A stretch of DNA of 64,000 nucleotides from Actinomycetes bacterium (GTDB lineage: Bacteria; Actinomycetota; Acidimicrobiia; Acidimicrobiales; RAAP-2), in NCBI GenBank assembly GCA_021820665.1, contig JAKADK010000006.1, positions 1 to 64,000 of the forward strand. The letters run 5' to 3'. Positions within the stretch are counted from its first letter, which is position 1, and every line of letters begins with the position of its first letter. The position numbers and the translations under genes are program-made. The notes beneath the pieces were generated by a model. That model saw nothing but the letters and a program-made list of their open reading frames with translations, made no database searches and was not told where the DNA came from. Shown here piece after piece: positions 45,076 to 64,000 of the stretch.

Positions 45076-45081
45076 AGCTTA
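45076..45081 (-). promoter_or_regulatory. -10 hexamer for the ferredoxin gene
   Basis: TAAGCT on the minus strand, about 125 bases before the start codon, so this would be a leadered transcript. Confidence 0.35.
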
Positions 45082-45178
45082 CCCGGTCGTCGGGCGCCGG
45101 CTGCGGATCGGGAACGCGGCCGGCGTCGTCCAGCGGCGGGTGTCGCCGGCACGGCGCCAACGACGACGGCTCCCGGTG

Positions 45179-45184
45179 TAGGGT
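45179..45184 (+). promoter_or_regulatory. -10 hexamer for arc
   Basis: TAGGGT, 13 bases before an in-frame GTG (45198) and about 120 before the ATG used here (45306). Confidence 0.4.
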
Positions 45185-45305
45185 CGGGCCGCGGGCGGTG
45201 CGAAGGAGGCACGGACCCGGAGATCGGGCCGAGCTCGGGGACGCAACGGATCGGACCCGGGCCCGGCGAGGTTCGAGTGCCGGGCGGGCCGGCGAGCGTG
45301 AGGTG

Positions 45306-47081: not shown

Positions 47082-47125
47082 GGCAGCGCGCCGCCCCCGG
47101 GGGCAACGTGCGTCCGTTCCCGGGA

Positions 47126-47131
47126 TAGGGT
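47126..47131 (+). promoter_or_regulatory. -10 hexamer for dop
   Basis: TAGGGT, 7 bases before the GTG at 47139. Confidence 0.5.
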
Positions 47132-47138
47132 CGACATC

Positions 47139-48632
47139 GTGGCCATCGAGAAGGTCTGTGGGATCGAGACGGAGTACGGCATCCAGGTGGTCGGGGGCGA
47201 CCCGAACCCCATTGCCGGGTCGTCCGTGCTCATCAACGCCTACGCCCACGAAGTCGTGCACCGCCGGACGGCGTGGGACTTCGACGACGAGTCCCCCGGC
47301 AACGACGCCCGGGGTGAGGCGCAGCCGGGCGCCATGCCACCGGCGATCGAGACCCACCTGGTGAACAGCGTGCTCACCAACGGGGCCCGCTACTATGTCG
47401 ACCACGCCCACCCGGAGTTCTCCACCCCGGAGTGCCTCGACGCCCTCGAGTGCGTCCGCTACGACCGGGCCGGGGAGGAGATCCTGCGACGGTCGGTCGA
47501 GGCGGCGGACCGGCTGACGCACGACGGGCGGCGGTTCTCCGTCTACAAGAACAACTCCGACGGCAAGGGCAACTCCTACGGGTGCCACGAGAACTACCTC
47601 GTCGCCCGGTCGGTGCCCTTCGACCGCATCGTGACGTCGGTGACGCCCCACTTCGTGACCCGTCAGATCTACGCCGGCGCCGGAAAGGTCGGAGCCGAGA
47701 CGGCGGCGTTCGACGGCCAGCGCGTCGACTACCAGATCTCCCAGCGTGCCGAGTTCTTCGAGGAGCGGGTGGGCCTGGAGACCACCTTGAAGCGGCCGAT
47801 CGTGAACACGCGCGACGAGCCGCACGCCGACCCGAGCCGCTACCGGCGCCTGCACGTGATCGTGGGGGACTCGAACCTGTGCGAGGTGGCGACGTTCCTG
47901 AAGGTGGGCACGACGGCGCTCGTCCTCTCCATGATCGAGGACGACGCCACTGGACCGCGCCCGCTCGACTTTGCCGATCCGGTCCGGGCGATGCACGCCG
48001 TCTCTCAGGACCTGACGCTGCGTCGGGCACTGCGGATGGCAGACGGGTCGACGGCGACGGCGCTCGACGTCCAGTGGCACCTCTACGAGCTCGCCCGGAA
48101 GTACGCGATGGACCACGGGACGGCGAGCGTCGGCGGGGCCGACGTGGGGACGCTCATCCTCGACCGCTGGGGTGGTGTGCTCGAGGCGCTCGAGGCGGAC
48201 CCGATGTCGCTGGCCGGGCAGCTCGACTGGGTGGCCAAGCTCCACCTGCTCGAGGGCTATCGCGCCCGGCACGACCTAGCGTGGCAGGACCGGCGGTTGG
48301 CGGCGATGGACCTGCAGTACCACGACCTTCGCCCGGCAAGATCGCTGTTCTCCCGGTTGGGAACGGAGCGCCTCGTGAGCGACGAGGAGGTCGCGCGGGC
48401 CGTGGAGACCCCGCCCCGGGGCACACGGGCGTGGTTCCGCGGGGCGTGCCTCGCCCGGTGGCCCGACGCGGTGGTCACGGCCAACTGGGACTCCCTCGTC
48501 TTCGACTTGGGGCAGGACCCGCTCCGGCGGGTCCCTATGATGGACCCCCTGCGAGGCACCGCGGATCACGTCGAGGAATTACTGCAGAAGAGCTCCACTC
48601 CAGCCGATCTTCTCAGTCGATTGAGCCAGTAG
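47139..48632 (+). CDS. dop: Pup depupylase/deamidase
   Basis: Removes Pup from conjugates and, where Pup ends in Gln, deamidates it. The 497-residue glutamine-synthetase-like protein begins with IEKVCGIETEYGIQVVGG, contains the long flexible Dop loop (about residues 40-80) absent from PafA, the YVDHAHPEFSTPE active-site strand with catalytic Asp, [17 protein letters not shown] and [25 protein letters not shown]. Because Pup here already ends in Glu, only depupylation should be needed. Confidence 0.96.
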   Translation: MAIEKVCGIETEYGIQVVGGDPNPIAGSSVLINAYAHEVVHRRTAWDFDDESPGNDARGEAQPGAMPPAIETHLVNSVLTNGARYYVDHAHPEFSTPECLDALECVRYDRAGEEILRRSVEAADRLTHDGRRFSVYKNNSDGKGNSYGCHENYLVARSVPFDRIVTSVTPHFVTRQIYAGAGKVGAETAAFDGQRVDYQISQRAEFFEERVGLETTLKRPIVNTRDEPHADPSRYRRLHVIVGDSNLCEVATFLKVGTTALVLSMIEDDATGPRPLDFADPVRAMHAVSQDLTLRRALRMADGSTATALDVQWHLYELARKYAMDHGTASVGGADVGTLILDRWGGVLEALEADPMSLAGQLDWVAKLHLLEGYRARHDLAWQDRRLAAMDLQYHDLRPARSLFSRLGTERLVSDEEVARAVETPPRGTRAWFRGACLARWPDAVVTANWDSLVFDLGQDPLRRVPMMDPLRGTADHVEELLQKSSTPADLLSRLSQ

Positions 48633-48652
48633 GGCCCGAGGAGGGTGTACCC

Positions 48653-48850
48653 ATGACCGAACGAGAGCTGAAGAAGAAGCCGACGACCACCGAGCGGGCT
48701 GAGCCGGTGGCCGAGGACGTGCCCGCGCCGTCAGCAAAGGGAGAGAAGCTGAAGGCCGAGCTCGACGACCTCCTGGACGAGATCGACGAGGTCCTCGAGG
48801 ACAATGCCGAGGAGTTCGTCCGTAACTACGTCCAGAAGGGTGGGGAGTAG
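48653..48850 (+). CDS. pup: Prokaryotic ubiquitin-like protein Pup
   Basis: Disordered 65-residue modifier that PafA couples to substrate lysines. The N-terminal half is rich in Lys, Thr and Pro; the Arc-binding helix [23 protein letters not shown] is split here only by normal family variation, and the end reads YVQKGGE. The terminal residue is Glu, encoded by GAG before TAG, not the Gln of mycobacteria, so it is conjugation-ready. ATG 48653 has GAGGAGGG upstream. The GGGGAG near its stop serves as ribosome site for prcB. Confidence 0.96.
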
Positions 48851-48855
48851 CCAGC

Positions 48856-49668
48856 GTGGGCCTTCCCGTGTTCACGGCGGCCGAAGACCCCGGTCCGGAC
48901 TTCGTCGGGCTGCTGCGCAGGACTGGCGTGTCGTCCGGCGTCCCGGCGGGTGGGGCGGCCGGTGGTGAGCCCGGCGTGGGCCCGGTCCGTCACGGCACCA
49001 CCGTCGTCGCCCTGCGCTACGCCGAGGGCGTGGTGATGGCGGGGGACCGCCGGGCGACCGAGGGGCACGCCATCGCCCACCGGGCGATGGAGAAGGTCTT
49101 CGCCGCCGACCGGTTCTCGGCCGTGGCGATCGCCGGTGCCGCCGGACCGGCGGTCGAGATGGTGCGCCTGTTCCAGACGCAGCTTGAGCACTACGAAAAG
49201 GTTGAGGGCGTGGTGCTCAGCCTCGAAGGAAAGGCGAACCAGCTGGGGCAGATGGTGAGGGAGCACCTGCCGATGGCGATGCAGGGGCTCGCCGTCGTCC
49301 CGCTGTTCGCCGGCTACGACCTCGACCGGCAGCGGGGAAGGATCTTCAACTACGACGTGACCGGCGGTCACTACGAGGAGACCGAGCACAGCGCCACCGG
49401 GTCGGGCGGACGTGACGCCCGCACCACCGTGAAGCTCGGCTACCGGGTGGGCATGCCCAGGGACGAGGCCGTCGAACTGGCGATCGAGGCGCTCTACGAG
49501 GCGGCGGACGAGGATTCGGCGACTGGGGGCCCCGACCTCGTCCGCGGGATCTACCCGCTCGTGGCCACGGTGACCGCGCTCGGCTTTGCGTCGGTTCCGG
49601 AGACCGAGGTGGCCGAACGGTTCGCCACGCTCATCGACCGCCGACGGTCGGAGGGGCGCCAGCCATGA
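48856..49668 (+). CDS. prcB: 20S proteasome beta subunit
   Basis: Catalytic subunit of the 20S core. Of the 270 residues, a Gly/Ala/Pro-rich propeptide of 47 is removed at [11 protein letters not shown], leaving Thr48 as nucleophile. The expected Asp (AGDRRAT) and Lys ([10 protein letters not shown]) of the active site are present. GTG start, with the ribosome site in the pup 3' end, and an ATGA overlap with prcA. Confidence 0.96.
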
Positions 49669-50342
49669 CCATGCCTTATTACGTCGCGCCCGAGCAGGTG
49701 ATGAAGGACCGGGCGGAGTACGCCCAAAAGGGCATCGCCCGGGGCCGGTCGCTGGTGGCGACCACCTTTGACGACGGCATCCTCGTGGTGGCGGAGAACC
49801 CGTCGCGCTCGCTCCACAAGGTGAGCGAGATCTACGACCGGATCGCCTTCGCTGGCGTGGGGAAGTACAACGAGTTCGACCAGCTCCGGGTGTCGGGAGT
49901 CCGCCACGCCGACACGAAGGGGTACGCGTACAGCCGCGACGACGTCGACGCCCGGTCGCTGGCGAACCTCTACGCCCAGTACCTGGGCCAGGTGTTCACC
50001 CACGAGATGAAGCCGCTCGAGGTCGAGATCCTCGTGGCGGAGCTGGGCACCGACCGGAAGCCGGACCAGCTGTACCACATCGCCTATGAGGGGACCATCA
50101 CCGACGAGGACCGCTACGCCGTGCTCGGAGGTGAGACCCAGGCGATCGCCGACCGGATGGAACGGGTGTGGCACGACGGGTGGGGGATCAGCGAGGCCAC
50201 CCGCGCCGTGGTAGGAGCCCTCGGGGGCCCGGATCGGGTGTTGGAGCCAAAGGACCTCGAGGTGGCCGTCTTGGCCAGGGGCAACGGGCGGCGGACGTTC
50301 AGGCGGATCGAGGATGCCGAGCTCGACTCGCTGCTGGCTTGA
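49665..50342 (+). CDS. prcA: 20S proteasome alpha subunit
   Basis: Outer-ring subunit of the 20S core, 225 residues. It starts with [23 protein letters not shown] (the gate-forming N-terminus and H0 helix) and continues with [32 protein letters not shown] and the family strand order. No catalytic Thr, as expected. Its last codons and stop are duplicated in a 24-bp direct repeat. Confidence 0.96.
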
Positions 50343-50382
50343 ACGGGACGGCACCGGGTGGCTTGAACGGGACGGCACCGGG
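50335..50382 (+). repeat. 24-bp perfect direct repeat across the prcA stop codon
   Basis: A 24-base unit starting TGGCTTGAACGG occurs twice in tandem (50335-50358, 50359-50382). The first copy contains the prcA stop TGA, the second repeats the same codons beyond it. Confidence 0.95.
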
Positions 50383-50390
50383 GCCGTCCC
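50369..50390 (+). terminator. Hairpin between prcA and pafA
   Basis: GGGACGGC, 6-base loop, GCCGTCCC: perfect 8-bp stem formed partly by the second copy of the direct repeat. No T-run; may attenuate read-through into pafA, which has its own promoter hexamer. Confidence 0.4.
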
Positions 50391-50438
50391 CGGGCTGCCG
50401 GGCCCGGCGGTGGTTCCCCCCAGGCGCTGAGGGGGCGG

Positions 50439-50444
50439 TACGGT
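50439..50444 (+). promoter_or_regulatory. -10 hexamer for pafA
   Basis: TACGGT, 7 bases before the ATG at 50452. Confidence 0.5.
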
Positions 50445-50451
50445 GGGACCG

Positions 50452-51810
50452 ATGGACCGGCGCATCTTCGGGTTGGAGAACGAGTACGGCGTGACCTGCA
50501 CGCTGCGCGGCCAGCGTCGGCTCAGCCCCGACGAGGTGGCCCGGTACCTGTTCCGGAGGGTGGTGAGCTGGGGTCGGTCGTCAAACGTCTTCCTCGAGAA
50601 CGGGGCGCGGCTGTACCTCGACGTCGGCAGCCATCCGGAGTACGCCACGCCAGAGTGCGACGACATCGCCGAGCTGGTCGTGCACGACAAGGCCGGGGAA
50701 TGGATCCTGTCCCATCTCGTCGAAGGGGCGGAGAGCCGGCTTCGTGAGGAGGGGATCCGTGGGGACATCTATTTGTTCAAGAACAACACGGACTCGGCGG
50801 GGAACTCGTATGGCTGCCACGAGAACTATCTGACTAGCCGGCAGGACGACCTCGGCCACTACGCCGAGGTCCTCATCCCGTTCCTCGTCTCCCGGCAGAT
50901 CTACGCCGGGGCGGGAAAGGTCCTCCAGACGAACCGCGGTGCGTCGTTCTGCCTCTCCCAGCGGGCCGAGCACATCTGGGAGGGGGTGTCGTCGGCGACG
51001 ACGCGTAGCCGGCCGATCATCAACACCCGGGACGAGCCCCATGCCGACGCGGAGAAGTACCGGAGGCTTCACGTCATCGTGGGGGACTCGAACATGAGCG
51101 AGTACGCCACGTTCTTGAAGGTGGGGGCGACGAGCATCATCCTCCGGATGCTGGAGGACCCGGCAACCGTCCTGCGCGATCTCACGCTGGAGAACCCGAT
51201 CCGTGCGATCCGGGAGATCAGCCACGACCTCACCTGCCGCCGAGCGGTGCGGCTGGCCAACGGTCGCGAGATGAGCGCGCTCGACATCCAGTCGGAGTAC
51301 CTCCATCGGGCCCTGCGCTACCGGGACACGAAGGGGCTCTCGGTCCAGGAGTCCCGAGCCCTCGACATGTGGGAGCACTGCCTGAAAGGATTGGAGTCCG
51401 ACCCGATGACCCTGCACCGTGAGTGCGATTGGGTGGCCAAGTACCGTCTCATCGAGCACGTCCGGGCCCGGCACGACCTGGCGTTGGGGAGCCCCCGGGT
51501 GGCCCTGGTCGACCTGCAGTACCACGACGTCGACCGGCGGCGCGGGTTGTTCTACCGGCTCCAGGCCCACGACGAGGTCGAGCGGATCTGCGACGACACC
51601 GACATCGCCGCCGCCATGTCCACGCCGCCCCAGACCACACGGGCCCGGTTGCGGGGCGACTTCGTCCGACGGGCCAAGGAACGGCGCCGGGACTTCACCG
51701 TGGACTGGGTCCACCTCAAGCTGAACGACCAAGCCCAGCGGACGGTGCTTTTGAAGGACCCGTTCCGCTCGCACGACGAACGGGTCGAGAAGCTCATCGC
51801 CAGCCTGTGA
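50452..51810 (+). CDS. pafA: Pup ligase
   Basis: ATP-dependent ligase joining the C-terminal Glu of Pup to substrate lysines. It is 452 residues, the standard length: [31 protein letters not shown] with catalytic Asp, [41 protein letters not shown]. It lacks the Dop loop. I prefer ATG 50452 over GTG 50443 because of length and the leaderless-type hexamer. pafB and pafC do not follow; tatA does. Confidence 0.96.
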
Positions 51811-51851
51811 GGCACCGCCCACTCGCTGGTCTTTCCCGACCTCGCTGCCGG

Positions 51852-51857
51852 TAGACT
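51852..51857 (+). promoter_or_regulatory. -10 hexamer for tatA
   Basis: TAGACT, 6 bases before the GTG at 51864. Confidence 0.55.
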
Positions 51858-51863
51858 GGCTCC

Positions 51864-52334
51864 GTGCTCGACCTGAGTCCCGAGAAGCTGTTGATCATCC
51901 TGGTCGTCGCCGTGATCGTGCTCGGCCCCGACAAGCTGCCGCGGGTGGCCCGCCAGGTCGGAAGCCTCTGGTCCGACCTCCAACGACTGCGCCAGCGCTT
52001 GGAGTCCGAGGTGCGGGGCACGTTTCCCGACCTGCCGTCGACCGACACCATCACCCGGGCCGTGCGGTCGCCGATGGCGTTCCTGGACCAGCTCGGCGGT
52101 GATGGGCCGGCGGACAGCCCTTCCGCCGGCCCATCCGTCGTCGCCGGTGGCGCCGAAGAACGGCGTGACGACGGGACGCAGACGACGATCGGGCCGGATC
52201 TGAGCGGCGGATCGACCGCCGGAGAGGAGTGGTTCGACGCCGCGGTGCACGACACCGCCGGGCGGGGCCGAGGGATGGGCCGGGAGGTCCGGGTTCCCGA
52301 CGCTGCGGTGCCCGACGACCCGTCCATGAACTGA
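51864..52334 (+). CDS. tatA: Twin-arginine translocase subunit TatA/TatB
   Basis: Single-helix Tat component that assembles the pore with TatC. The 156-residue protein has the helix at residues 6-20, LGPDKLPRVARQVGSLWSDL as hinge and amphipathic helix, then a long disordered tail. The length and LGPDKLP hinge are closer to TatB than to short TatA proteins. tatC follows after 78 bases. Confidence 0.88.
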   Translation: MLDLSPEKLLIILVVAVIVLGPDKLPRVARQVGSLWSDLQRLRQRLESEVRGTFPDLPSTDTITRAVRSPMAFLDQLGGDGPADSPSAGPSVVAGGAEERRDDGTQTTIGPDLSGGSTAGEEWFDAAVHDTAGRGRGMGREVRVPDAAVPDDPSMN

Positions 52335-52412
52335 TCGCGCCGCCCCGGCCCGCCCGCGCCGCCCCGGCGCCGGCTGACACGGTGGCGCCGGAGGAGCCCG
52401 AGGACACCGACC

Positions 52413-53162
52413 ATGCCCCCGACCGCTACGAACACGAAGCGAGGGAAGGCGTCGCCCGACGCCATGACCTTGGTCGAGCACTTGGCCGAACTGCGCCGCC
52501 GGGTGACCATCTGCGCCGTCATGTTCGTCGTGGCCGGCACGTTCGCCTTCGTCGTCTACAACCCGATCCTCGACTTCCTCAAGCACCCGTACTGCGAGGT
52601 GGCTGCCCAGCACTGCGAGTTCTTCGTGACGGGACCGCTGGACGGCCTGGCCATCCGGGTGAAGATCGCCGCCTACGGCGGGCTGTTCTTGACCTTCCCG
52701 GTCCTCCTGTGGGAGTTCTGGCGCTTCATCACACCCGGCCTCAGGCCGACCGAGAAGAAGTACATCGTTCCGTTCGTCTCGGCGTCGATCGTGCTCTTCG
52801 GCTTCGGCTGCCTCGTCGCCTACGTGATCTTCCCTCACGCTCTGCGGTGGCTGGGGGACATCGGAGGACCCAGCCTGCGCGAGATCTACAGCCCGGAGAA
52901 CTACCTGAGCCTGGTGCTCCTCATGATGGTGGTCTTCGGCATCACGTTCGAGTTTCCGGTCGTCGTGGTGTCCCTGGAGATCGCCGGGATCATCACCCCC
53001 CGCCAGCTCTCGTCCTGGCGGCGGTGGGCGATCGTCATCATCGTCGTGGTCGCCGGGGTGGTGACCCCCAGCTCGGACCCGTTCTCCATGCTGGCGATGG
53101 CCGTCCCGCTCTACGTCTTCTACGAGCTGTCGATCATCGTGGGGAGGGTGTTGCGCCGGTGA
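52413..53162 (+). CDS. tatC: Twin-arginine translocase subunit TatC
   Basis: Six-helix receptor for twin-arginine signal peptides, 249 residues. Conserved marks are LVEHLAELRRRV at the N-terminus (signal-peptide binding), FPVLLWEFWRFITPGLRPTEKK and FGITFEFPVVVV. Start at ATG 52413; the following helicase starts 53 bases after the stop. The pafA-tatA-tatC-helicase order resembles mycobacteria minus pafBC. Confidence 0.95.
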   Translation: MPPTATNTKRGKASPDAMTLVEHLAELRRRVTICAVMFVVAGTFAFVVYNPILDFLKHPYCEVAAQHCEFFVTGPLDGLAIRVKIAAYGGLFLTFPVLLWEFWRFITPGLRPTEKKYIVPFVSASIVLFGFGCLVAYVIFPHALRWLGDIGGPSLREIYSPENYLSLVLLMMVVFGITFEFPVVVVSLEIAGIITPRQLSSWRRWAIVIIVVVAGVVTPSSDPFSMLAMAVPLYVFYELSIIVGRVLRR

Positions 53163-53214
53163 TCGGGATGCCCGGAGGACGTCCCGCCCCGACCGGCCGC
53201 GGCCCGGGGCGGGG

Positions 53215-55227
53215 GTGACCTCGACGGCGGGAGAGCCGTTCCCGCTCGACCCGTTCCAGGTCCGCGCCATCGACGCGCTCGACGCCGGGCGCTCCGTCCT
53301 CGTCTCGGCACCCACGGGCTCCGGGAAGACGGTGGTCGGCGTGCACGCCGTGGCGCGGGCGCTGGCGGCAGGGAAGCGGGCCGTCTACACGACGCCGATC
53401 AAGGCCCTCTCGAACCAGCAGTTCGGCCACCTCTGCCGGCGGTTCGGGGCGGAGCGGGTCGGGCTCATCACCGGAGATGCCTCGATCCGTCCGCACGCGG
53501 CGGTGGTGGTGGCGACGACGGAGATCCTCCGGAACATGCTCTTCGCCCGCTCACCGGTCATCGACGAGCTCGGGGCCGTCGTCCTCGACGAGGTCCACTA
53601 TCTCCAGGACCGGGCTCGCGGATCGGTCTGGGAGGAGGTGATCGTGGTCACGCCACCAGCCGTCCAGTTCGCCTGTCTGTCGGCGACCGTCGGGAACGCC
53701 GAGGAGTTCGGCGCCTGGCTGGACTCGGTCCGCGGGGCGACGACGACGGTCGTCGAGACGGTCCGGCCGGTCGTGCTCGACCACCACTTCCTCTACGCCA
53801 GGCAGGGGGCCGAGGGTGTGCGCGAGCTGCCGCTGCTCGTGGCCGACGGCACCAACCCCGATGGCCGTGCACTCGACCAGCACGTGCGACGGACCGCCCG
53901 GCACCGGATCCGGACGCCCCGGCGGATCGAGGTCGTCGACTTCCTGGAGCACCGGGCGCTGCTCCCGGCCATCGTGTTCATCTTCTCCCGTGCCGCCTGC
54001 GATGGTGCCGCGCTCCGCTGCCTCGAGGCCGGCGTGCGTCTGACCACGCCGGCGGAGCGGGCGAGCATCCGGGAGCTCACCGAGGCGGCCGTGGCCCACC
54101 TCGCCGACGACGATCTCCATGCCCTCGGGTTCGGTCCGTGGTCGGCCGCCCTGGAGGCTGGCGTCTCCTCCCACCACGCCGGGATGATCCCGGCCTTTCG
54201 GGAGCTCGTCGAACGGTGCTTTGCCGACGGGTTGGTGAAGCTGGTCTACGCCACCGAGACGCTGGCACTCGGGATCGACATGCCGGCGCGCACGGTCGTG
54301 ATCGAGAAGATGACCAAGAGGCGGGGTGCTGCCTCGAGCCCTCTCGACAGCGGGGAGTACCGGCAGCTCACCGGACGAGCCGGGCGGCGGGGCCGGGACC
54401 GGGAGGGTCATGCGGTCGTGTTGTGGTCTCCGGGCGTGTCGTTCACCCGGACGTCGGAGATCGTCCAGGCACCACCACCCGATCTGACGAGCGCGTTCGT
54501 CCCCACCTACAACCTGGCGGTGAACCTGGTCCTGGCATGGACGCGCGACGGGGCCCACGCCCTGCTCGGCGCCTCGTACGCTCAGTGGAACGCCCGCCCG
54601 GGCACCACCGCCTTGGTGGATGCCCTCGACGCCCGGCTGGAGGTCCTCGCCGCCTTCGGCATGGTGGCGGGATGGCAGGTGACGCCGCCCGGCAGGATCG
54701 TGGCCGACATCTACCACGAGCGGGACCTGGTGCTCGCACTGGTGCTGGAGCGTGGCGTCCTGGATGGCTGCGGACCGCTGGAGGTCGCCGCCCTGGCGTC
54801 GCTCCTCACCTACGAACGTCGGAGCGGGCGTGGCGCGCCGTCGGGCCTGGCCCTCTCGGCAGCCCGGGTGCTCGGCGACCGCGCCGCCCGCGTGGAGGAG
54901 ATCGTGGGCGACGTGCGGGTGAGAGAGCACGCCGCCGGTGTGCCGCTCGCCCGGAGCTGCGAGCCCGGCCTGGCCGGCGCCGTCCTTGCATGGGCCGGTG
55001 GCGCCCCGCTCTCGGCGGTGCTGGCCGGCGGGGTGATGGCGGCGGGCGACCTGGTCCGGAACCTGCGCCAGGAGGTCGACCTCCTGGCGCAGATCGAACG
55101 GGTGGCGGCCGACCCGCCGCTCGCCGCCGCGGCGGGCGAGGCGGTCGCCCTGCTCCGCCGAGGCATCGTCCTGGACGAGACCGCCGGCGCCGAGGCATCC
55201 GCCAACCCGGCACCACCGCCGTCGTAG
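53215..55227 (+). CDS. helY: Ski2/Mtr4-like DEVH-box helicase (HelY type)
   Basis: ATP-dependent RNA helicase of the Ski2 family, 670 residues. Motifs: Q/I region APTGSGKTVVG, Ia TTPIKALSNQQF, Ic VATTEILRNML, II LDEVHYLQD, III LSATVGN, IV IVFIFSRAACD, V VYATETLALGIDMPARTVV and VI QLTGRAGRRGRD. It is about 200 residues shorter than mycobacterial HelY, mainly in the C-terminal stalk and helical region. Likely an RNA-decay or surveillance helicase. The stop TAG doubles as the start of the -10 hexamer of the next gene. Confidence 0.9.
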   Translation: MTSTAGEPFPLDPFQVRAIDALDAGRSVLVSAPTGSGKTVVGVHAVARALAAGKRAVYTTPIKALSNQQFGHLCRRFGAERVGLITGDASIRPHAAVVVATTEILRNMLFARSPVIDELGAVVLDEVHYLQDRARGSVWEEVIVVTPPAVQFACLSATVGNAEEFGAWLDSVRGATTTVVETVRPVVLDHHFLYARQGAEGVRELPLLVADGTNPDGRALDQHVRRTARHRIRTPRRIEVVDFLEHRALLPAIVFIFSRAACDGAALRCLEAGVRLTTPAERASIRELTEAAVAHLADDDLHALGFGPWSAALEAGVSSHHAGMIPAFRELVERCFADGLVKLVYATETLALGIDMPARTVVIEKMTKRRGAASSPLDSGEYRQLTGRAGRRGRDREGHAVVLWSPGVSFTRTSEIVQAPPPDLTSAFVPTYNLAVNLVLAWTRDGAHALLGASYAQWNARPGTTALVDALDARLEVLAAFGMVAGWQVTPPGRIVADIYHERDLVLALVLERGVLDGCGPLEVAALASLLTYERRSGRGAPSGLALSAARVLGDRAARVEEIVGDVRVREHAAGVPLARSCEPGLAGAVLAWAGGAPLSAVLAGGVMAAGDLVRNLRQEVDLLAQIERVAADPPLAAAAGEAVALLRRGIVLDETAGAEASANPAPPPS

Positions 55228-55230
55228 TGT
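55225..55230 (+). promoter_or_regulatory. -10 hexamer for the ThyX-like gene
   Basis: TAGTGT, 9 bases before the ATG at 55240; its TAG is the helicase stop codon. Confidence 0.4.
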
Positions 55231-55239
55231 AGAGCGGCC

Positions 55240-56976
55240 ATGTTCCCCTACCTCCCCGAGCGGTTCACCGCCGACGAGCAAGACGTGCTGCGCCGGTACT
55301 TCACGAACCTGGACCGGCCGGTCTTTGCCCTCGTGAACCTGCCCGAGGTGGTGAAGGGTGCGCTCTTCGCCCGGTACTCCCGGTCGCCCAAGAGCTTGAG
55401 GCGCCTCTTCCTGGACGAGTTCGTGGGCGAGCTCGACATCCGGGGTGACGCCACGGTCGATGCAACGGTCGGTCTGTCCCGGGCCGAGGACCTCTACTCC
55501 CGGGTGTTCGTGGAGTACGGGGACGATTCGGTGGCACAGCTCGGGGGGGTGCACCTGGCCTGTGAGCAGGCGTCGAACCTCCTCACGAAGATCCTCGAGC
55601 GGGGACGGCTCATGGCCTATCTCGAGCAATCGACCCGGTACATCGCCTACGACAACCGGCTCCCCAACGGGCACTACCGGTACCACCGGCCCTCCGACGT
55701 GCTGGACTCGTCGCTCGGCGCCCGGTACGTGGGCGACATGGACCGGCTCTATGACACCTACGCCGATCTGCTCGCCCGCGTCCACGCCGATCTCCAGGGC
55801 CGCTACCCGAAGAAGGCGGGCGACTCGGACCTGGTGCACCGCCAGGCGGTGCGGGCAAAGGCACTGGACGCCACCCGAGGGCTCCTGCCGGCGGCGGCGC
55901 TGTCGAACGTCGGCATGTACGGGACGGGACAGTCCTACGAGCTCCTTCTCGTGCGCATGCGCGCCCATCCCCTTCCCGAGGCGCGTCACTATGCCGATCT
56001 GATGCTGGAGGAGCTCCGCAAGGTGATCCCGTCTTTCGTCCAGCGGGTCGACCGGACGGATCGGGGCGTGGCGTGGTCCGAGTACTTCGCGTCGAACCGC
56101 CAGACGACCGCAGCCATCGTGGACCGGTTGGTGGGCCGGTCCGCAGGGATGTCGGGCCACGGTGGTGAGACGAGGGCGGGGGGCCGGGGAGAGGGTCCCG
56201 ACGGGGAGGGAGGTGGTGGAGCGCGTGTCGGCGGGGGAGAGGGAGAGGGAGAGGGAGAGGGAGAGGGGCGGCCGGAGGTGCGGCTCGTCGACTTCGATCC
56301 CGATGGGGAGCGGAAAGTCATCGCCGCCATCTGCTACGCCTATAGCGACGCCTCGGAGGACGAGTTGGCCCGCCGGGTCGACCTCCTCGGCACTGACGAG
56401 CGGCGCGCCATCCTGGCCGCCTACGTGGGCGAGCGCACCAACCGGCGCCACCGGCCGGGGCGGGCGTTCGAGCGGACTGGTTACCGGTTCGACCTCCTGA
56501 CCGACTACGGGGCGTTCAGGGACCTCCAGCGGCACCGGATGGCGACGGTGGAATGGCAGGACCTCGGTCCCGTCCACGGCTTCGCCGTGCCCGAGGCGGT
56601 CGTAGACGCCGGCCTCGACGGGGCGTACCGCTCCTCGCTCGAACGCTCGGCAGAGCTCTATGGCGCGCTGGTGGACACGTTTCCGGTGGCTGCGCCCTAC
56701 GCTGTCGCCCTGGCGTTCCGGATCCGTTACGTGATCCAGTGCAACGCCCGCGAGGCGATGCACCTCATCGAGCTCCGCTCGGGCACCCAGGGCCACCCCT
56801 CGTACCGGAGCGTGGCGCACCAGATGCACCGGCTCATCGCCGAGCAGGCCGGACACCGCCTGATCGCCGAGGCGATGCGCTTCGTGGACCACCAGGACGA
56901 CGGGCTCGGCCGGCTCGAGGCGGAGCGCCGGTCCGAGGAACGCCGTGTGGCGAGCGGAGCTGGGGAAATCCTCTAA
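55240..56976 (+). CDS. Duplicated ThyX-like protein (FAD-dependent thymidylate synthase fold)
   Basis: The 578-residue protein contains two ThyX-like domains, about 1-300 and 345-560, joined by a Gly/Glu linker. In canonical ThyX the signature is RHR-x-x-S-x-x-E-x-S-x-R-Y. The first domain has RGRLMAYLEQSTRY (R121, E129, S131, R133; the His is Gly). The second has LQRHRMATVEWQDLG (R431-H432-R433) without the later Ser/Arg. The late ThyX helix appears in both, as SYELLLVRMRAHPLPEARHYADL and NAREAMHLIELRSGTQGHPSYRSV. A dimer-like fold in one chain is likely; thymidylate synthase activity is uncertain. Confidence 0.8.
   Translation: MFPYLPERFTADEQDVLRRYFTNLDRPVFALVNLPEVVKGALFARYSRSPKSLRRLFLDEFVGELDIRGDATVDATVGLSRAEDLYSRVFVEYGDDSVAQLGGVHLACEQASNLLTKILERGRLMAYLEQSTRYIAYDNRLPNGHYRYHRPSDVLDSSLGARYVGDMDRLYDTYADLLARVHADLQGRYPKKAGDSDLVHRQAVRAKALDATRGLLPAAALSNVGMYGTGQSYELLLVRMRAHPLPEARHYADLMLEELRKVIPSFVQRVDRTDRGVAWSEYFASNRQTTAAIVDRLVGRSAGMSGHGGETRAGGRGEGPDGEGGGGARVGGGEGEGEGEGEGRPEVRLVDFDPDGERKVIAAICYAYSDASEDELARRVDLLGTDERRAILAAYVGERTNRRHRPGRAFERTGYRFDLLTDYGAFRDLQRHRMATVEWQDLGPVHGFAVPEAVVDAGLDGAYRSSLERSAELYGALVDTFPVAAPYAVALAFRIRYVIQCNAREAMHLIELRSGTQGHPSYRSVAHQMHRLIAEQAGHRLIAEAMRFVDHQDDGLGRLEAERRSEERRVASGAGEIL
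56235..56264 (+). repeat. Five GGGAGA units in the ThyX-like linker
   Basis: Hexanucleotide GGGAGA repeated five times, giving an alternating Glu-Gly stretch inside the interdomain linker. Confidence 0.9.
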
Positions 56977-57030
56977 CGTCCTGACCAGGAAGTATGTATG
57001 TAATCCCTGGTAGAACGGGGGACAAGGCAG

Positions 57031-57061
57031 TTGACGACCCCCCCCGCACCCGACCTATCGT
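57031..57061 (+). promoter_or_regulatory. Sigma-70-like promoter upstream of the RNA candidate
   Basis: TTGACG (57031-57036), 19-base spacer containing a run of C, TATCGT (57056-57061). It is the only clear two-box promoter I found in the window. Confidence 0.55.
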
Positions 57062-57140
57062 GCGGCCAGTCCCGGACGCCCTTCACCGACCCGCTCAGCG
57101 GCGGTCGTCGAAGGGGGGGATGCCGTGAGAGGCGGAGGAA

Positions 57141-57230
57141 GGTCCAGGGGGTTCGAGTAGAGAACGTTTCCCGGGTGTCGCGGCGTTCGTCGTGGCGCGT
57201 GGGAAGCGGCGCCAAAGACCCCCCTGGGCC
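57141..57230 (+). ncRNA. Candidate structured RNA (leader or small RNA)
   Basis: GGTCCAGGGGG (57141-57151) pairs with CCCCCTGGGCC (57220-57230): 11 bp with one G-U. Inside it CGTTTCCC (57165-57172) pairs with GGGAAGCG (57201-57208): 8 bp with one G-U. The two helices are separated by a 13/11-base internal loop and capped by 28 bases. Long-range nested pairing behind a promoter suggests a functional RNA. I do not recognise a known family; GAGGAAGGTCC resembles the RNase P 5' core but its 3' partner is absent. Confidence 0.45.
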
Positions 57231-57392
57231 CCGCCGCCCGTTCCATTCGGTCGGTCAGTCGGTGTCCCACCGTTCCCGCGTGCCCGCGTGCCGGAACCCT
57301 CGTCGCAGGGCAGGCGGGGACAATGGTGTCGGTCCGCCACGACCGCCCCACGTGCCCCGGACCCTGGTGCACGATGTCGGCATCGGAGCGTC

Positions 57393-57398
57393 TATGCT
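57393..57398 (+). promoter_or_regulatory. -10 hexamer for the acidic zinc-ribbon gene
   Basis: TATGCT, about 42 bases before the ATG at 57441, so a short leader. Confidence 0.4.
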
Positions 57399-57440
57399 CC
57401 CGGCCAACCGACCGTGGAAGGGCCGACTCGAAGGGCCGAC

Positions 57441-57932
57441 ATGCCTCAGGACCTGGACGAAGTAGACGAACCGGACGTGCTCGCCGACGACGATCTCGAC
57501 GATCTCGCCGACGACGTCGTGGACCCCGAGGAAGACCTGGACGAGGTCGTCCTCGGAGAGGACGACGACGTCCTTGACGAAGACGAAGTGGACGCCGTCG
57601 ACGACATCACGCTCGAGGAAGTGATCGTCCCCGGCGTCGGAGTGGCGAAGGCCGTGCCGGCGGCGACCGAGGACGCCGACGAGGAGGACGAGGAGGACGA
57701 GGAGGACGAGGACGTCGAGGCCAGCCTGGACATGATCCTGAAAGAGCGTCTGGTCGTCGAGGAGCCCGAGGAGGACGAAGACGACGTCCTCGAGGTGGAC
57801 GACCGCACCGACGGCGTCGAGCGGGTCCTCCCCAAGCAGCCCGACGAGTTCGTGTGCCGTTCGTGCTTCCTCGTCAAGCACCCGAGCCAGCTGGCGGACA
57901 AGGAGCACCTGTTGTGCCGGGACTGCGTATGA
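57441..57932 (+). CDS. Very acidic DUF4193-like zinc-ribbon protein
   Basis: The 163-residue protein is mostly Asp and Glu through about residue 125, including an EEDEEDEEDED stretch, and ends in a small zinc ribbon: FVCRSCFLVKHPSQLADKEHLLCRDC (two CxxC knuckles). This matches the actinobacterial DUF4193 family in its C-terminal part, although the acidic region here is longer than I would expect. DNA- or RNA-polymerase binding is possible; function unknown. Overlaps the next gene by 4 bases (ATGA). Confidence 0.75.
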   Translation: MPQDLDEVDEPDVLADDDLDDLADDVVDPEEDLDEVVLGEDDDVLDEDEVDAVDDITLEEVIVPGVGVAKAVPAATEDADEEDEEDEEDEDVEASLDMILKERLVVEEPEEDEDDVLEVDDRTDGVERVLPKQPDEFVCRSCFLVKHPSQLADKEHLLCRDCV

Positions 57933-58591
57933 CGGGGGGTGCTGCCGGGCCTGAGGCGAACCGGGAGCCGGGTCCGTCGCTCGAGCAGCGGCTCCTGGAC
58001 CTCGCCGTCTATGCCCCGGTGGGTCTGGTGGTCGCCGTGGGCGAGACCCTCCCGAGGCTGATCGCCGACGGTCGCCGCCGGCTCGGTCCCGGCGTCGCCT
58101 CCGCCCAGGTCGTGGGCCGTCTTGCCACCGGTGCCGGCTACGGTCTCCTCCGCCGCCGCCTCGAAGGACTGTGCCGGCTCGAGGCCAGGGAGCCCGGGCC
58201 GGTGGCGGCGCCGTCTCACGGGACCCCCGAGGTGAGGGGAGGGGAGGACTCGGGAGGTACGGGCGTTGCCCGCGCCCGGAGAGGTCGTGCGGCCGGTGGG
58301 CCTGGCGGCGGACCGGCCACCGCTCAGCCGGCTGGGTCCGCCGTCCGCCCGTCCCGGAGCGATGCCCGTCGATCGATGGAGACGACGGGCGGGTCCGACA
58401 CCGGGAGCGGCCCGACCCCGCCCGTCGATGCGTTGGCCATCCCCGGGTTCGCCTCGCTCTCCGCGTCCCAGGTGGTCCAGCGGCTGGACGGCCTGACCGA
58501 GAGCGAGCTGCGGGAGCTCCGGGCCTTCGAGGCCGGGACCCGTCACCGGCGCACCATCCTCAACCGGGTCGACCAGCTGCTCGGCACGTGA
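57929..58591 (+). CDS. Conserved actinobacterial protein with a C-terminal helical motif
   Basis: The 220-residue protein has an N-terminal amphipathic region (LEQRLLDLAVYAPVGLVVAVGETLPRL is split here across residues 15-42), a low-complexity Gly/Arg middle, and a conserved C-terminus LSASQVVQRLDGLTESELRELRAFEAGTRHRRTIL. The last segment occurs at the ends of many actinobacterial proteins, often membrane- or lipid-associated. No enzymatic motif. ATG overlaps the zinc-ribbon stop. Confidence 0.65.
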   Translation: MTGGAAGPEANREPGPSLEQRLLDLAVYAPVGLVVAVGETLPRLIADGRRRLGPGVASAQVVGRLATGAGYGLLRRRLEGLCRLEAREPGPVAAPSHGTPEVRGGEDSGGTGVARARRGRAAGGPGGGPATAQPAGSAVRPSRSDARRSMETTGGSDTGSGPTPPVDALAIPGFASLSASQVVQRLDGLTESELRELRAFEAGTRHRRTILNRVDQLLGT

Positions 58592-58630
58592 GCAGGCTCT
58601 CCCCGGTCCGGCGTCCGATGGGGAGGTGGC

Positions 58631-59119
58631 ATGGAGGGTGTGCGAGCCGCCGAGCCGGGTGACGCCGTCCGGTTCGCCGAGCTGGTCTGGGCGCTGAGGA
58701 GCGCCGTCGTCTCCCAGCGGGGAGGTGAGCAGCTCGTCGCCCGGTCGGTCCCGGCGACGCCGGGCGTCTTTGACGTCGAGCGCTTCGAGGCGATCCTGCG
58801 CGACGAGACCCGCGTCGTCCTCGTCGGGACGATCGACGGGACGGTGGTTGGCGTGGCGGTGGGCCGGGCGGACCCGATCGCCGGCGGGAGCCAGGTGGGC
58901 CACCTGGAGGCGTGCTATGTCGAGCCCGGCGCCCGCGGGGTCGGTGTAGGCCGGCTCCTGCTCGATTCGGTGGTGGCGTGGTGCGACGAGCGAGGGTGCC
59001 GGGGTATCGACGGCGTCGCGCTCCCCGGCGACCGGTCGGCCAAGCAGTTCTTCGAGTCCGCGGGGTTCAAGGCTCGCCTGCTCGTGATGCACCGGCCGGC
59101 GCCGGGCCCGGAGGGTTGA
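58631..59119 (+). CDS. GNAT-family N-acetyltransferase
   Basis: Single GNAT domain of 162 residues. The acetyl-CoA-binding motif is YVEPGARGVGVGRLLLDSVVAW, followed by FFESAGF. Substrate unknown. ATG 58631 is preceded by GGGGAGGTGGC. The gene converges on an unrelated gene, with GGGCG/CGCCC able to form a small hairpin between them. Confidence 0.85.
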   Translation: MEGVRAAEPGDAVRFAELVWALRSAVVSQRGGEQLVARSVPATPGVFDVERFEAILRDETRVVLVGTIDGTVVGVAVGRADPIAGGSQVGHLEACYVEPGARGVGVGRLLLDSVVAWCDERGCRGIDGVALPGDRSAKQFFESAGFKARLLVMHRPAPGPEG

Positions 59120-59146
59120 ACCGCGGGCGGTCGCCCGGGCGCGTGC

Positions 59147-60523
59147 TCAGCGGCGGGGACCGCCACCGCCCCTCTGGGCCACCGGGCGTCGGGGACCGGG
59201 CGGCGGTGGGATGGGAATGCCGAGCAGACCGGCCAGGGCGGGGACGTACCCGGCGGCCTTGCGGGCGGCCGCCGTCAGCTCCTCGCTCATCTCGGCGGGA
59301 AGGCCGGAGGGTCTCACCGTCCGGCGTACCGGTGAGTCGACGACGGCGTCGAGGAGATCGGCCCAGAGCGTTGCCGGGGTGTCGGCCGCCATGGCGGCGC
59401 CGGCCCGCTGGGCGAGGGTCACCGCCAGCTCGGCCGAGAGGCGGGTCCCCGGCTCGGGCGGGCGCGACGCCGTCCGGAGGGCGTCGGCGACCCGACCGGA
59501 GTCGAGCGCCGCGGTGATCCTGCGGACCCAGTCGTCCCGGAGTGCCTTCACCCGCTGGTCGAGGGCGCCCCGGATCGCTGCGGCGAATTCGCGCCCTTCC
59601 TCGTCGAGGGTGACCGTGGAGGCCGAAGCGGCGATCGAGCGCAGCTCGCGTAGGGGCACGTCCTTGCCGGCCACCCGGGCGGCAGCGGCGCGGTCCTTCC
59701 AGGCTGCGAGGTTGACGACCGGTCGCAGCGCCTCGGCCATGGCGATGAGGGGGACCGGGTTCACCTCGGCCCGGCCGTCGGCGCGTGCTCGAGCGTTCTG
59801 CTCGTCGATGGCGGCGCGCACGGCGGGAATCCCTCCCCGCAACAGCTGCTCCGCCACGGGGAGCTCCTCGGGCTTCAACGACGCCAGAGCCGCGTTCCGG
59901 TAGGTCGTGGACGTCGCCAGCCGTCTCCCGCCCTCCCGGCGTCCCTGCCCGCCTACCCGCTCCCGCTCCCCGCCGGCTCCCGTTCCCCGGGCGCCGGCCG
60001 CGCCCGGGGGGCCACCCGGGCGCATGCCCCGTCCGGGACCCCCGCGGGAACCTCCGGAGGAGGCGTCGGTGCTCCGCACCGCTCCCGCCGGCGTCCGGGA
60101 TCGCCGCTCGTCCGGGCCGGGCCGGGTGCCGGTGGCCGAGCGCTGCCGCGACGCTCCAGTCGTGGACTCCTCACGGGGGGCTCGGGAACGTCCCGGCCCT
60201 CCGTCGCGCCGATCGGGACGCGACGAGCGACCCCTGCCGGCGAAGATGACGTTCACGTCCGGACCAGCCTTGGGCGGGCCGATGAGCTCGATGCGCTCGA
60301 CGACCTTCGGTTCGCTCTTCCGCTTCGGGGGTGCCAGCGTGAGGATGGTCATCCCGTCGAGCCCCGACTCGATGTCGGCCCGGAGCACGGACCCCACCGA
60401 TGCGCCGACCGGCACCAGCGCTCCGGGGACGGTCCCGCGCGGTTGCTTGGCACCGGCAGCGCGCCACGTCCACGTGCCGTCGGAGGCCGTGCTGGTCAGT
60501 TCGACTTCGATTCGGTGAGACAT
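59147..60523 (-). CDS. Conserved hypothetical protein with disordered middle
   Basis: The 458-residue protein has three parts: an N-terminal beta-rich domain (about 1-85, HRIEVELTSTASDGTWTWRAAG), a disordered Arg/Gly/Pro/Ser-rich segment of about 110 residues, and a helical C-terminal half (about 200-430, starting YRNAALASLKPEELPVAEQLL). The C-terminal half has heptad-like spacing and many Arg and Ala. No catalytic motif or known family recognised. I use ATG 60523; TAGCGT lies 10 bases upstream on the same strand. Confidence 0.6.
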   Translation of the reverse strand: MSHRIEVELTSTASDGTWTWRAAGAKQPRGTVPGALVPVGASVGSVLRADIESGLDGMTILTLAPPKRKSEPKVVERIELIGPPKAGPDVNVIFAGRGRSSRPDRRDGGPGRSRAPREESTTGASRQRSATGTRPGPDERRSRTPAGAVRSTDASSGGSRGGPGRGMRPGGPPGAAGARGTGAGGERERVGGQGRREGGRRLATSTTYRNAALASLKPEELPVAEQLLRGGIPAVRAAIDEQNARARADGRAEVNPVPLIAMAEALRPVVNLAAWKDRAAAARVAGKDVPLRELRSIAASASTVTLDEEGREFAAAIRGALDQRVKALRDDWVRRITAALDSGRVADALRTASRPPEPGTRLSAELAVTLAQRAGAAMAADTPATLWADLLDAVVDSPVRRTVRPSGLPAEMSEELTAAARKAAGYVPALAGLLGIPIPPPPGPRRPVAQRGGGGPRR

Positions 60524-60662
60524 ACCGGGCGCCACGCTATCGCCGCTGCGCCCCCCTCACGACACAGAGCGTCCCCGAGGTCGGTCGGCAGGGCGCGCGG
60601 TGGCGCCGCAGGGGGTGCCGGAGGCCCCTGGCGTGTGCCGTCGGCGATGGGCGCGCCGGCGG

Positions 60663-60893
60663 TCACCAGCGATGCCGGGCGGCCAGCGGTGGGCCGTACC
60701 CGGCTGCCTGCGCACACGGACCGCACAGGTCGATCCGGTGCGCGCCGGGGCGGCCCGACGCCGGGACCCGCCGCCAGCCCATGCGGCGGGCGTCCTCCAG
60801 GCTGGCGGCCAGTGACCAGTGGGGTGCGGTCTGACAGCCGCAGTGCGCGCACGTGCGCACGATGGCGTCCTCGTCGAAACGGTTGGCTCGCAT
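60663..60893 (-). CDS. Small zinc-ribbon-like protein
   Basis: The 76-residue protein has CAHCGCQ near residue 15 and LCGPCAQAAGYGPP near residue 57, a four-Cys zinc-binding pattern with CxxC knuckles. Between them is LEDARRMGWRRV. An in-frame GTG at 60935 would add 14 residues; there is no ribosome site at either. Function unknown. It may be cotranscribed behind the desaturase gene. Confidence 0.6.
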   Translation of the reverse strand: MRANRFDEDAIVRTCAHCGCQTAPHWSLAASLEDARRMGWRRVPASGRPGAHRIDLCGPCAQAAGYGPPLAARHRW

Positions 60894-60950
60894 CCCGGCG
60901 TCAGGCCTGATGACCTCGCGCGCCCATGACTGCACGATACCGCTGCCGCC

Positions 60951-62090
60951 TCAGCGGTCCGGTCGCGCCCGAGCCGCCGCGCCCACCCGATGGAGGTACG
61001 TCAGGGTCTCTGCGTAGGACTGACGGAGCGTCCGCTCCCGATAGGGGATGCCGTGCTCGGCGCACAGGGCTCGAACGGCGGGTTGGGCAGCGTGGAGGTT
61101 GCCCATCGGCATGGCGGGGAAGAGGTGGTGCTCGATCTGGTAGTTCAGGCCTCCGAGGCCGAGGTCGACCAGACGGCCACCCCGGACGTTGCGCGAGGCC
61201 AGGACCTGGCGGCGCAGGAAGTCGGCCCGATCGCGGGGGCCGACGAGCGGCATCCCCTTGTGGTTGGGCGCGAAGGCGCCGCCGAGGTACACCCCGAGCA
61301 GCCCCTGCAGGACGAGCAAGAAGACCACGGCCCGCAGGGGCGAGAGCACGAGGAAGGCCACGAAGACCAGCGCGACGGCATGGAGGGCGAGCAGGGCGAT
61401 CCCGGTCCTCCGGAAGCGGAGCGCCGGGTTGGCGAAGGCCCGTACGCTCGACACATGGAGGTTGAGGGCCTCGAGGAAGAGCAGGGGGACGAAGGCCCAC
61501 GCCTGGTATCGGGCCAGCAGGCCCAGGGCGGGGAGCCTGGCCGAGGCCTGGTCGACCTGCTCGGGTGTCCAGGCGATCGCCCCCAGGACGACGTCGGGGT
61601 CGCGGCCGAGCTCGTTGGGATGGCCGTGGTGCCGGTTGTGCTTGTCAACCCACCAGCCATAGCTCAGCCCGATCGCCAGGTTACCGGCCAGGAGACCGAT
61701 CACGTCGTTGTGACGGCGCGACGGGGAGAGCTGGCGGTGACCGGCGTCATGGGCCAGGAAGCCCGCCTGGCCGAAGCCGGCCGCCAGGAGCACGGCCGTG
61801 GCCACCTGCCACCAGGAGTCGCCCAGGAGACCGAAGACGACCCAGCCGCTGGCGAGCAGGACGGTTCCCAAGGCGACCCGGGCGACCTCTGTGCGCACAG
61901 GTCGTTCGAGGAGGCCCTCTGCCCGGACCTGCTCGACGAGAGATAGGTAGGCGGCGTCTGGCCCGTCCTCCGGTCGGATGGCGAGATCGCCGGCGCCCGG
62001 CACCGGTGGGCCGACCCGGGTCGCCGGTGGGCCGACCCGGGCCGACGGGCCGTCGGGGGGCGCGGGGGTGTCCAGCGGGCGCGCTGTCAC
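60951..62090 (-). CDS. Membrane fatty acid desaturase
   Basis: Diiron acyl desaturase of 379 residues, probably introducing double bonds into membrane lipid chains. The three histidine boxes are HDAGHRQ, HNRHHGHP and the more distant QIEHHLFP; the last is the form seen in front-end (delta-5/6-like) desaturases. Four hydrophobic segments are visible. The N-terminal 40 residues are Pro/Gly rich and contain a short repeat (RVGPPATRVGPPV). GTG start at 62090 with GGAGAGGA upstream. Confidence 0.9.
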   Translation of the reverse strand: MTARPLDTPAPPDGPSARVGPPATRVGPPVPGAGDLAIRPEDGPDAAYLSLVEQVRAEGLLERPVRTEVARVALGTVLLASGWVVFGLLGDSWWQVATAVLLAAGFGQAGFLAHDAGHRQLSPSRRHNDVIGLLAGNLAIGLSYGWWVDKHNRHHGHPNELGRDPDVVLGAIAWTPEQVDQASARLPALGLLARYQAWAFVPLLFLEALNLHVSSVRAFANPALRFRRTGIALLALHAVALVFVAFLVLSPLRAVVFLLVLQGLLGVYLGGAFAPNHKGMPLVGPRDRADFLRRQVLASRNVRGGRLVDLGLGGLNYQIEHHLFPAMPMGNLHAAQPAVRALCAEHGIPYRERTLRQSYAETLTYLHRVGAAARARPDR

Positions 62091-62190
62091 CGTCGGTCCT
62101 CTCCGCTGGGCTGGCCCACGTGCGTCCCTCTCTGCTCGGTCGGGACGCTACGGCGCTGTCGGCGACGTCTCCGGGTTCGGAGATGGCTCC

Positions 62191-62196
62191 ATTCTA
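62191..62196 (-). promoter_or_regulatory. -10 hexamer for the desaturase gene
   Basis: TAGAAT on the minus strand, one base from consensus, inside the palindrome-containing TACCGGTAGAAT. Confidence 0.4.
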
Positions 62197-62267
62197 CCGG
62201 TAGGGAGCGGCGGGGCGGGGCGCACCGGGGTCGGGCGTCCGCCGGGGTCGCGGAGGGCCACGGATGA

Positions 62268-62295
62268 ACCGCCGATAAGGTCCATTATGTCAAGT
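62268..62295 (+). other. dif: dif-like XerC/XerD recombination site
   Basis: 28 bases with the arm-spacer-arm layout of Xer sites: ACCGCCGATAA (XerC-like arm), GGTCCA (6-base centre), TTATGTCAAGT (XerD-like arm). The arms match E. coli dif at the inner positions, ATAA next to the centre and TTATGT-AA-T on the other side. The site is intergenic and AT-richer than its surroundings. It may mark the replication terminus, or be a secondary Xer site used by an integrated element. Confidence 0.7.
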
Positions 62296-62431
62296 AGTGG
62301 TTGCGAGCGGGCCGCCGGTGGGCTCCGGGCTCCGGCCTGCCGCCGGCGGCGTCGGGCACGATCGCCGCCTCCCCCGGTGCGGATCCGGGCTCCTACGGTC
62401 CGCCCACGTTCCGGATCCGGTCCGGCCACGG

Positions 62432-62437
62432 TAGGGT
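62432..62437 (+). promoter_or_regulatory. -10 hexamer for apt
   Basis: TAGGGT, 6 bases before the GTG at 62444. Confidence 0.55.
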
Positions 62438-62443
62438 CACGCC

Positions 62444-63001
62444 GTGGCCCCGAGCACCGCCGGCGACGACCCGTTCGGGCTGGCCGCCGCCATCCGCACG
62501 ATCGCCGACTTCCCCCGGCCCGGTGTTCGGTTCCGCGACGTGACGACGCTGTGGGCCGACCCCGTGGCCTCTCGGACGGCGGTCCTCGCCCTCGTGGACG
62601 GAGCCGCCGGCCAGCAGGTCACGAAGGTGGTCGGACCCGAGTCCCGGGGGTTCATCTTCGGGGGCGTCCTGGCCCACGTGCTCGGTGCCGGGTTCGTCCC
62701 GCTGCGCAAGGGCGGGAAGCTCCCCGGAGACGTCGTCGAGGTTGCCTACGAGTTGGAGTACGGCTCGGCGACGCTGGCCGTCCACGCCGGAGCGGTCGGA
62801 CCTGGCGACCGCGTGCTCGTCCACGACGACCTCCTGGCCACCGGCGGCACGGCCCTGGCGGCCGTCGAGCTGGTCCGCCGGCTCGGAGCCACCGTCGTGG
62901 GGGCGTCGTTCGTGGTCGACCTGCCCGACCTCGGCGGGGCGCGCCGGCTCGAGGCCGCCGGTGTCCGGGTGTCCCGCCTCGTCGAGTTCCGGGGCCACTG
63001 A
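62444..63001 (+). CDS. apt: Adenine phosphoribosyltransferase
   Basis: Salvages adenine to AMP with PRPP. The 185-residue protein shows IADFPRPGVRFRDVT, GPESRGFIFGGVLAHVLGAGFVPLRKGGKLPG, EYGSATLAVHAGAVGPGDRVLVHDDLLATGGTA (the last part is the PRPP loop, given here as separate known segments) and VVDLPDLGGARRL. Length is normal for the family. GTG start in leaderless context. Confidence 0.93.
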   Translation: MAPSTAGDDPFGLAAAIRTIADFPRPGVRFRDVTTLWADPVASRTAVLALVDGAAGQQVTKVVGPESRGFIFGGVLAHVLGAGFVPLRKGGKLPGDVVEVAYELEYGSATLAVHAGAVGPGDRVLVHDDLLATGGTALAAVELVRRLGATVVGASFVVDLPDLGGARRLEAAGVRVSRLVEFRGH

Positions 63002-63063
63002 CGGCTGCGTCGGGCCTGGTGACTACGGCGGGGAGCCGCCGAGCGGGCGCCGGGCCCGAGCCG

Positions 63064-63069
63064 TAGACT
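63064..63069 (+). promoter_or_regulatory. -10 hexamer for the class II aldolase gene
   Basis: TAGACT, about 72 bases before the ATG at 63142; here a Shine-Dalgarno (AAGGAG) is present, in line with a leadered transcript. Confidence 0.4.
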
Positions 63070-63141
63070 CCGGGCGCGGCGCCCGTCTCCCGGATGTGAG
63101 GGGGCGGGCGTGTCGTGGACGCCGGAGCGAAGGAGCACCCC

Positions 63142-63906
63142 ATGACCGAGATCCTGCAGTTGCCACCGACGAAGCAGTTTGACTCCCCCGCCGACGAGCG
63201 TCTCTACCGGAAGCAGCGTCTGGCGGCCGGCTTCCGGCTCTTCTCCGCCTTCGGGTTCGACGAGGGTGTGGCCGGCCACATCACGGCGCGGGATCCCGAG
63301 CGGGAGGACCACTTCTGGGTGAACCCGTTCGGCATGCATTTCGGCCACATCCGGGTCTCGGACCTCATCCTCGTGAATGCCGAGGGCGAGGTGGTCGCCG
63401 GCGACCGGCCGGTCAACCGGGCGGCCTTCGCCATCCACAGCCAGGTGCACGCCGCCCGGCCCGACGTGGTGGCGGCCGCCCACGCCCACTCGGTCCACGG
63501 GAAGGCGTTCTCGTCGCTCGGTCGCCTGCTGGACCCGATCACCCAGGACGTCTGCGCCTTCTACGAGGACCACGCGCTGTTCGACGACTACACCGGTGTC
63601 GTGATCGACGTCGAGGAGGGGAAGCGCATCGCCCACGCCCTTGGTGGGAACAAGGCCGTGATCCTTCGCAACCACGGGCTGCTGACCGTGGGGCACTCCG
63701 TCGACGAGGCCGCCTGGTGGTTCATCACGATGGAACGTTCCTGCCAAGCCCAGCTCCTGGCCTCGGCGGCGGGTACGCCGGTCCTCATCGACCCGGAGAT
63801 GGCCCGCCGGACCCACGGGCAGGTCGGCACCCACGGCGGCGGGCACTTCAGCTTCCAGCCCCTCTTCGACCGGATCGTCCGGGAGCAGCCCGACCTCCTG
63901 GACTGA
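63142..63906 (+). CDS. Class II aldolase/adducin-family protein
   Basis: The 254-residue protein belongs to the AraD/FucA/adducin superfamily of zinc-dependent aldolases and epimerases. Metal and fold marks are DEGVAGHITARDPE, FWVNPFGMHFGHIRVSDLILVN, AAHAHSVHGKAFSSL (His-x-His) and ILRNHGLLTVGHSVDEA (third His). The adducin-like long form without a sugar-specific signature does not let me name the substrate. I prefer ATG 63142 (AAGGAG 7 bases upstream) to GTG 63115. The remaining 94 bases contain only a small CGGGA/TCCCG hairpin. Confidence 0.85.
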   Translation: MTEILQLPPTKQFDSPADERLYRKQRLAAGFRLFSAFGFDEGVAGHITARDPEREDHFWVNPFGMHFGHIRVSDLILVNAEGEVVAGDRPVNRAAFAIHSQVHAARPDVVAAAHAHSVHGKAFSSLGRLLDPITQDVCAFYEDHALFDDYTGVVIDVEEGKRIAHALGGNKAVILRNHGLLTVGHSVDEAAWWFITMERSCQAQLLASAAGTPVLIDPEMARRTHGQVGTHGGGHFSFQPLFDRIVREQPDLLD

Positions 63907-64000
63907 CGGGAGCAGTCCCGACCCGATCCGTGCCCATCCGGTGGGAGCGGCCCCGGCGGACCCGTCCGCGGCGGGCATTCACGGATGTCTCGGCGGGCGT

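Follow-up and report, generated by a model that had tools for sequence, protein, structure and literature searches.

Does the 28-bp sequence in the gap between a desaturase-like gene and apt represent the chromosomal dif site of this actinobacterium, or does it serve some other role? dif is the site at which XerC and XerD separate two joined chromosomes before cell division. A first-pass annotation of the 64,000-nucleotide stretch analysed here (the window) had described a 28-mer with two arms at 62268-62295, and both its sequence and its coordinates were confirmed. The 28-mer, ACCGCCGATAA-GGTCCA-TTATGTCAAGT, is arranged as 11-6-11 on the + strand and sits within a divergent gap of 353 bp (62091-62443). 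We consider it to be dif with a probability of about 97%. The features discussed below are the following:

1..62267, + strand: left flank, with GGGGGAG 20 times on the + and 5 times on the - strand, pointing to dif
60951-62090, - strand: fatty-acid-desaturase-like gene, left neighbour of the site
62268..62278, + strand: predicted XerC-binding arm ACCGCCGATAA, with the inner 8 bases (GCCGATAA) conserved and the outer 3 variable
62279..62284, + strand: central region GGTCCA, positioned by homology with XerCD sites
62285..62295, + strand: predicted XerD-binding arm TTATGTCAAGT, identical to the corresponding arm of the Frankia alni dif
62296..64000, - strand: right flank, continuing to the contig end at 71861, with GGGGGAG once on the + and 4 times on the - strand over 9.5 kb, pointing back to dif
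62444-63001, + strand: apt, right neighbour of the site

The length of 28 bp, the 11-bp arms and the 6-bp centre match the dif of the phylum. No second copy with up to 3 mismatches was detected in the window, where shuffled sequences gave an expectation of 0, and the genome-wide search proposed in the first-pass annotation likewise showed the site to be single: no further copy of the 28-mer was found in the draft genome (3,196,341 bases in 173 contigs), which is 94% complete, so that a second one may still lie in the missing part. A looser pattern matched one extra place in this draft, with 3 mismatches and a chance-like appearance. The window contains no tRNA gene, and no Rfam families were detected in or around the gap.

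The site is widely conserved. It is present in 31 of 36 relatives of the same genus or family, 30 of which carry exactly one, so that a single copy per chromosome is seen both in the 94% complete draft and in its relatives. Of 197 genomes of the class, 121 gave a match, which was a single one in 111 of them, while backward control patterns match far more rarely; some of the other genomes probably carry sites that have diverged further. Each of 120 loci from other Actinomycetota also holds exactly one site. In an alignment of 37 sites, taken from the genome under study and from relatives, positions 4-11 of the XerC arm are near invariant and positions 1-3 variable, and the central six bases vary save for the last two. 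The XerD arm is near invariant in those sites of relatives that were retrieved with up to 3 mismatches, and its identity across the 120 actinobacterial loci follows by construction from a search pattern that fixed these bases. Within the site each position carries 1.49 bits of information on average, a figure due partly to the retrieval of the sites by pattern, as against 0.19 and 0.16 bits in the flanks.

It had also been suggested that the site would be conserved between unrelated genes. Conservation of the site itself was borne out, but its gene setting is conserved as well: throughout the family, one side is formed by a conserved protein (59147-60535 in the window), a GNAT gene, thyX and a helicase gene, and the other by a class II aldolase-family gene and glycine cleavage genes. 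Only the desaturase gene and apt differ, neither of them being seen next to the site in the 20 relatives examined. This bears on the notion that the match arose by chance, or that it belongs to a divergent promoter or regulatory region shared by these two genes, as its location in a divergent intergenic gap might suggest. Chance matches have an expected number of 0, and the same sequence occurs in relatives in which the neighbouring genes include neither desaturase nor apt. Because the conservation of the site is independent of its neighbours, we regard this explanation as refuted and give it practically no weight.

A separate observation concerns the thyX region of the window, where positions 55240-56976 encode a ThyX-like protein of 578 aa; the ThyX model, with 211 positions, is less than half as long. 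This protein scores below the ThyX cut-off and has a low-complexity Gly/Glu-rich stretch in its middle part.

In the 20 relatives the site is flanked by neither desaturase nor apt, a local difference that could also be expected if the 28-mer were the attachment scar of an integrative element that exploits the Xer system (IMEX), or a docking site for one, rather than the dif of the host. Such elements usually target dif, and the exact motif occurs on six of 2.9 million viral contigs. An IMEX, however, leaves two sites, and only one copy is present in the draft genome; a pair of dif-like sites bounding a mobile element was found neither in the window nor in the rest of the draft. Moreover, the neighbouring genes are of housekeeping type and have a host-like composition, the site is kept in the same chromosomal neighbourhood in relatives, and a polar motif flips there (see below). 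The suggestion of a docking site for Xer-using phages or plasmids, made in the first-pass annotation, thus lacks support, because no second site was found; with the site conserved in relatives, we take this rival to dif as refuted and judge an origin of this kind to be very improbable.

Several records with additional sites were encountered in the course of this survey. In genome G017 a second site lies on a 6.6-kb contig (C28; locus L246) that along 3 kb shares 99.9% identity with a contig of G035 (L143). These two genomes represent different genera; contig C28 of G017 was therefore probably mis-binned, and one of the two bins is probably contaminated. Genome G056 carries four dif-like sites (L248, L249 and L251, with the fourth on L250), three of which share bases downstream, beyond the core (TTGATAT...). 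One of the four is placed on a contig that also carries an excisionase-like gene and another is adjacent to repeat-rich RHS-like proteins; these sites may mark Xer-using mobile elements. The six IMG/VR contigs with the exact actinobacterial dif motif (L254-L259) include one, L254, on which GGGGGAG flips (8:2, then 0:4); this record, though filed as viral, may consist of host DNA.

If the site is dif, then the replication terminus should lie within the window, as the first-pass annotation had pointed out. The genome under study is too fragmented for its position relative to the origin to be determined, and two relatives of the same order with one-contig chromosomes were used instead. In G038 (4,576,919 bases) dnaA is found at 1326 and the site at 2,320,402, approximately 31 kb (0.7%) from the antipode, while in G042 (4,775,416 bases) the respective positions are 4,680,926 and 2,225,811, the latter approximately 67 kb (1.4%) from the antipode. 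The site therefore lies opposite the origin in both chromosomes; in its own genome, the local motif flip alone speaks for the terminus.

This flip concerns the heptamer GGGGGAG, which stood out as strongly polar when the 400 kb surrounding the site in G038 were searched for words, and which was then tried in data not used for picking. In G038 itself, binned counts on the two strands are approximately 98:19 to the left and 10:80 to the right, the flip coinciding with the bin boundary located at the site. Among 20 relatives from the family the counts are 57:6 on the left versus 4:71 on the right (Fisher, 9e-27), the best switch point falls 50-250 bp from the site, and the word ranks first of 4,524 7-mers. 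The 120 actinobacterial dif loci (L002-L121) gave 192:8 versus 2:239, with GGGGGAG again ranked first, of 6,441 7-mers. Sparse sampling of G042 placed the reversal between 2.18 and 2.64 Mb, an interval that includes the site at 2.23 Mb. On the contig analysed here the difference between 20:5 and 1:4 has p = 0.02, with just 5 motifs to the right of the site, the first two of them at 62369 and 63183; the site falls inside the switch interval (56239-62368). Two other words were also considered: CCTGGCC, a further polar word from G038, was not replicated in the family, and GGGNAGGG, the KOPS of E. coli, did not as such show a clear switch in the sampled bins.

The GC skew was far less informative, being weak and noisy in the window, in its own contig, in 20 relatives and, at 20 sampled points, in the two chromosomes that consist of one contig. 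On the contig analysed here it is 0.043 in the left 9.5 kb and 0.046 on the right, with no sign change at the site over the 9.5 kb of right flank available. In the relatives there is a weak shift, in the expected sense in 13 of 16 (p = 0.03), and the left-right difference is small. Since only 9.5 kb of the contig extends beyond the site and the skew is weak in this group, this check cannot place the terminus.

The genome also encodes the proteins required for recombination at dif, the Xer proteins being recognized by their best hits. Two Xer-type recombinases score 155 and 142 bits, whereas other tyrosine recombinases reach at most 77. For the recombinase encoded on C136, XerD is the better match of the two equivalog models, and for that on C122 the best match is XerC; the gene of the latter precedes one for a WhiG-type sigma factor (assigned by reading the sequence). 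As judged from best hits and gene neighbourhood, these proteins are probably XerD and XerC, respectively; the labels are probable because both score below the NCBIfam equivalog cut-offs. One protein with an FtsK-gamma domain is encoded as well (C55).

By analogy with known systems, these components would act as follows. Homologous recombination would join sister chromosomes into a dimer, and FtsK at the septum would pump the DNA along polar motifs of the GGGGGAG type until the two copies of dif meet. XerC would be bound to the left arm and XerD to the right arm, the FtsK gamma domain would activate XerD, and recombination between the two dif sites by XerCD, with strand exchange presumably inside GGTCCA, would yield two monomers.

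To conclude, the identification of the 28-mer as dif, proposed in the first-pass annotation, is supported by its single copy, its conservation, the near-antipodal position in two relatives, the presence of XerC, XerD and FtsK genes, and the flip of the polar motif, the last of which, with the position in G038 and G042, also argues for a terminus within the window. The site is an ordinary landmark of a known kind, which an actinobacterial chromosome is expected to have. It nevertheless fixes the terminus of a fragmented genome and orients the contig from origin to terminus, left to right, up to 62 kb. The flip of GGGGGAG is of greater interest, as it suggests a candidate FtsK guide sequence for the phylum. 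On balance we favour the view that this word is the FtsK-orienting (KOPS) motif across Actinomycetota, this class included, and that it would be read by FtsK. A literature search yielded no relevant paper mentioning GGGGGAG with FtsK, nor any mention of it with the replication terminus; it may have been described before. In high-GC Actinomycetota it is a stronger marker of the terminus than GC skew and, if its role is confirmed, it could serve to locate the terminus and dif wherever GC skew fails in high-GC drafts.

The closest comparison is with the dif site of Frankia alni, CACGCCGATAATGCACATTATGTCAAGT (Kono et al. 2011, PMC3025954). Both sites are 28-bp sequences of 11-6-11 layout with identical XerD arms and an identical inner part of the XerC arm (CACGCCGATAA in F. 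alni), and the differences between them are confined to outer bases on the left of the XerC arm and to bases of the centre. These differing positions also vary among the 37 sites of this genome and its relatives and among the 120 sites of other Actinomycetota, all retrieved by a pattern that fixed the remaining positions. A single copy and a location at the terminus are further features shared with actinobacterial dif sites. A switch of a polar motif at dif is a hallmark of KOPS (PMC13342612), and such a switch, of the type expected of an FtsK-guiding motif, is seen here with GGGGGAG. While the KOPS of E. coli has the sequence GGGNAGGG and GGGGGAG, the best word here, is a candidate only, both are G-rich and polar, point to dif from both sides, and flip there.
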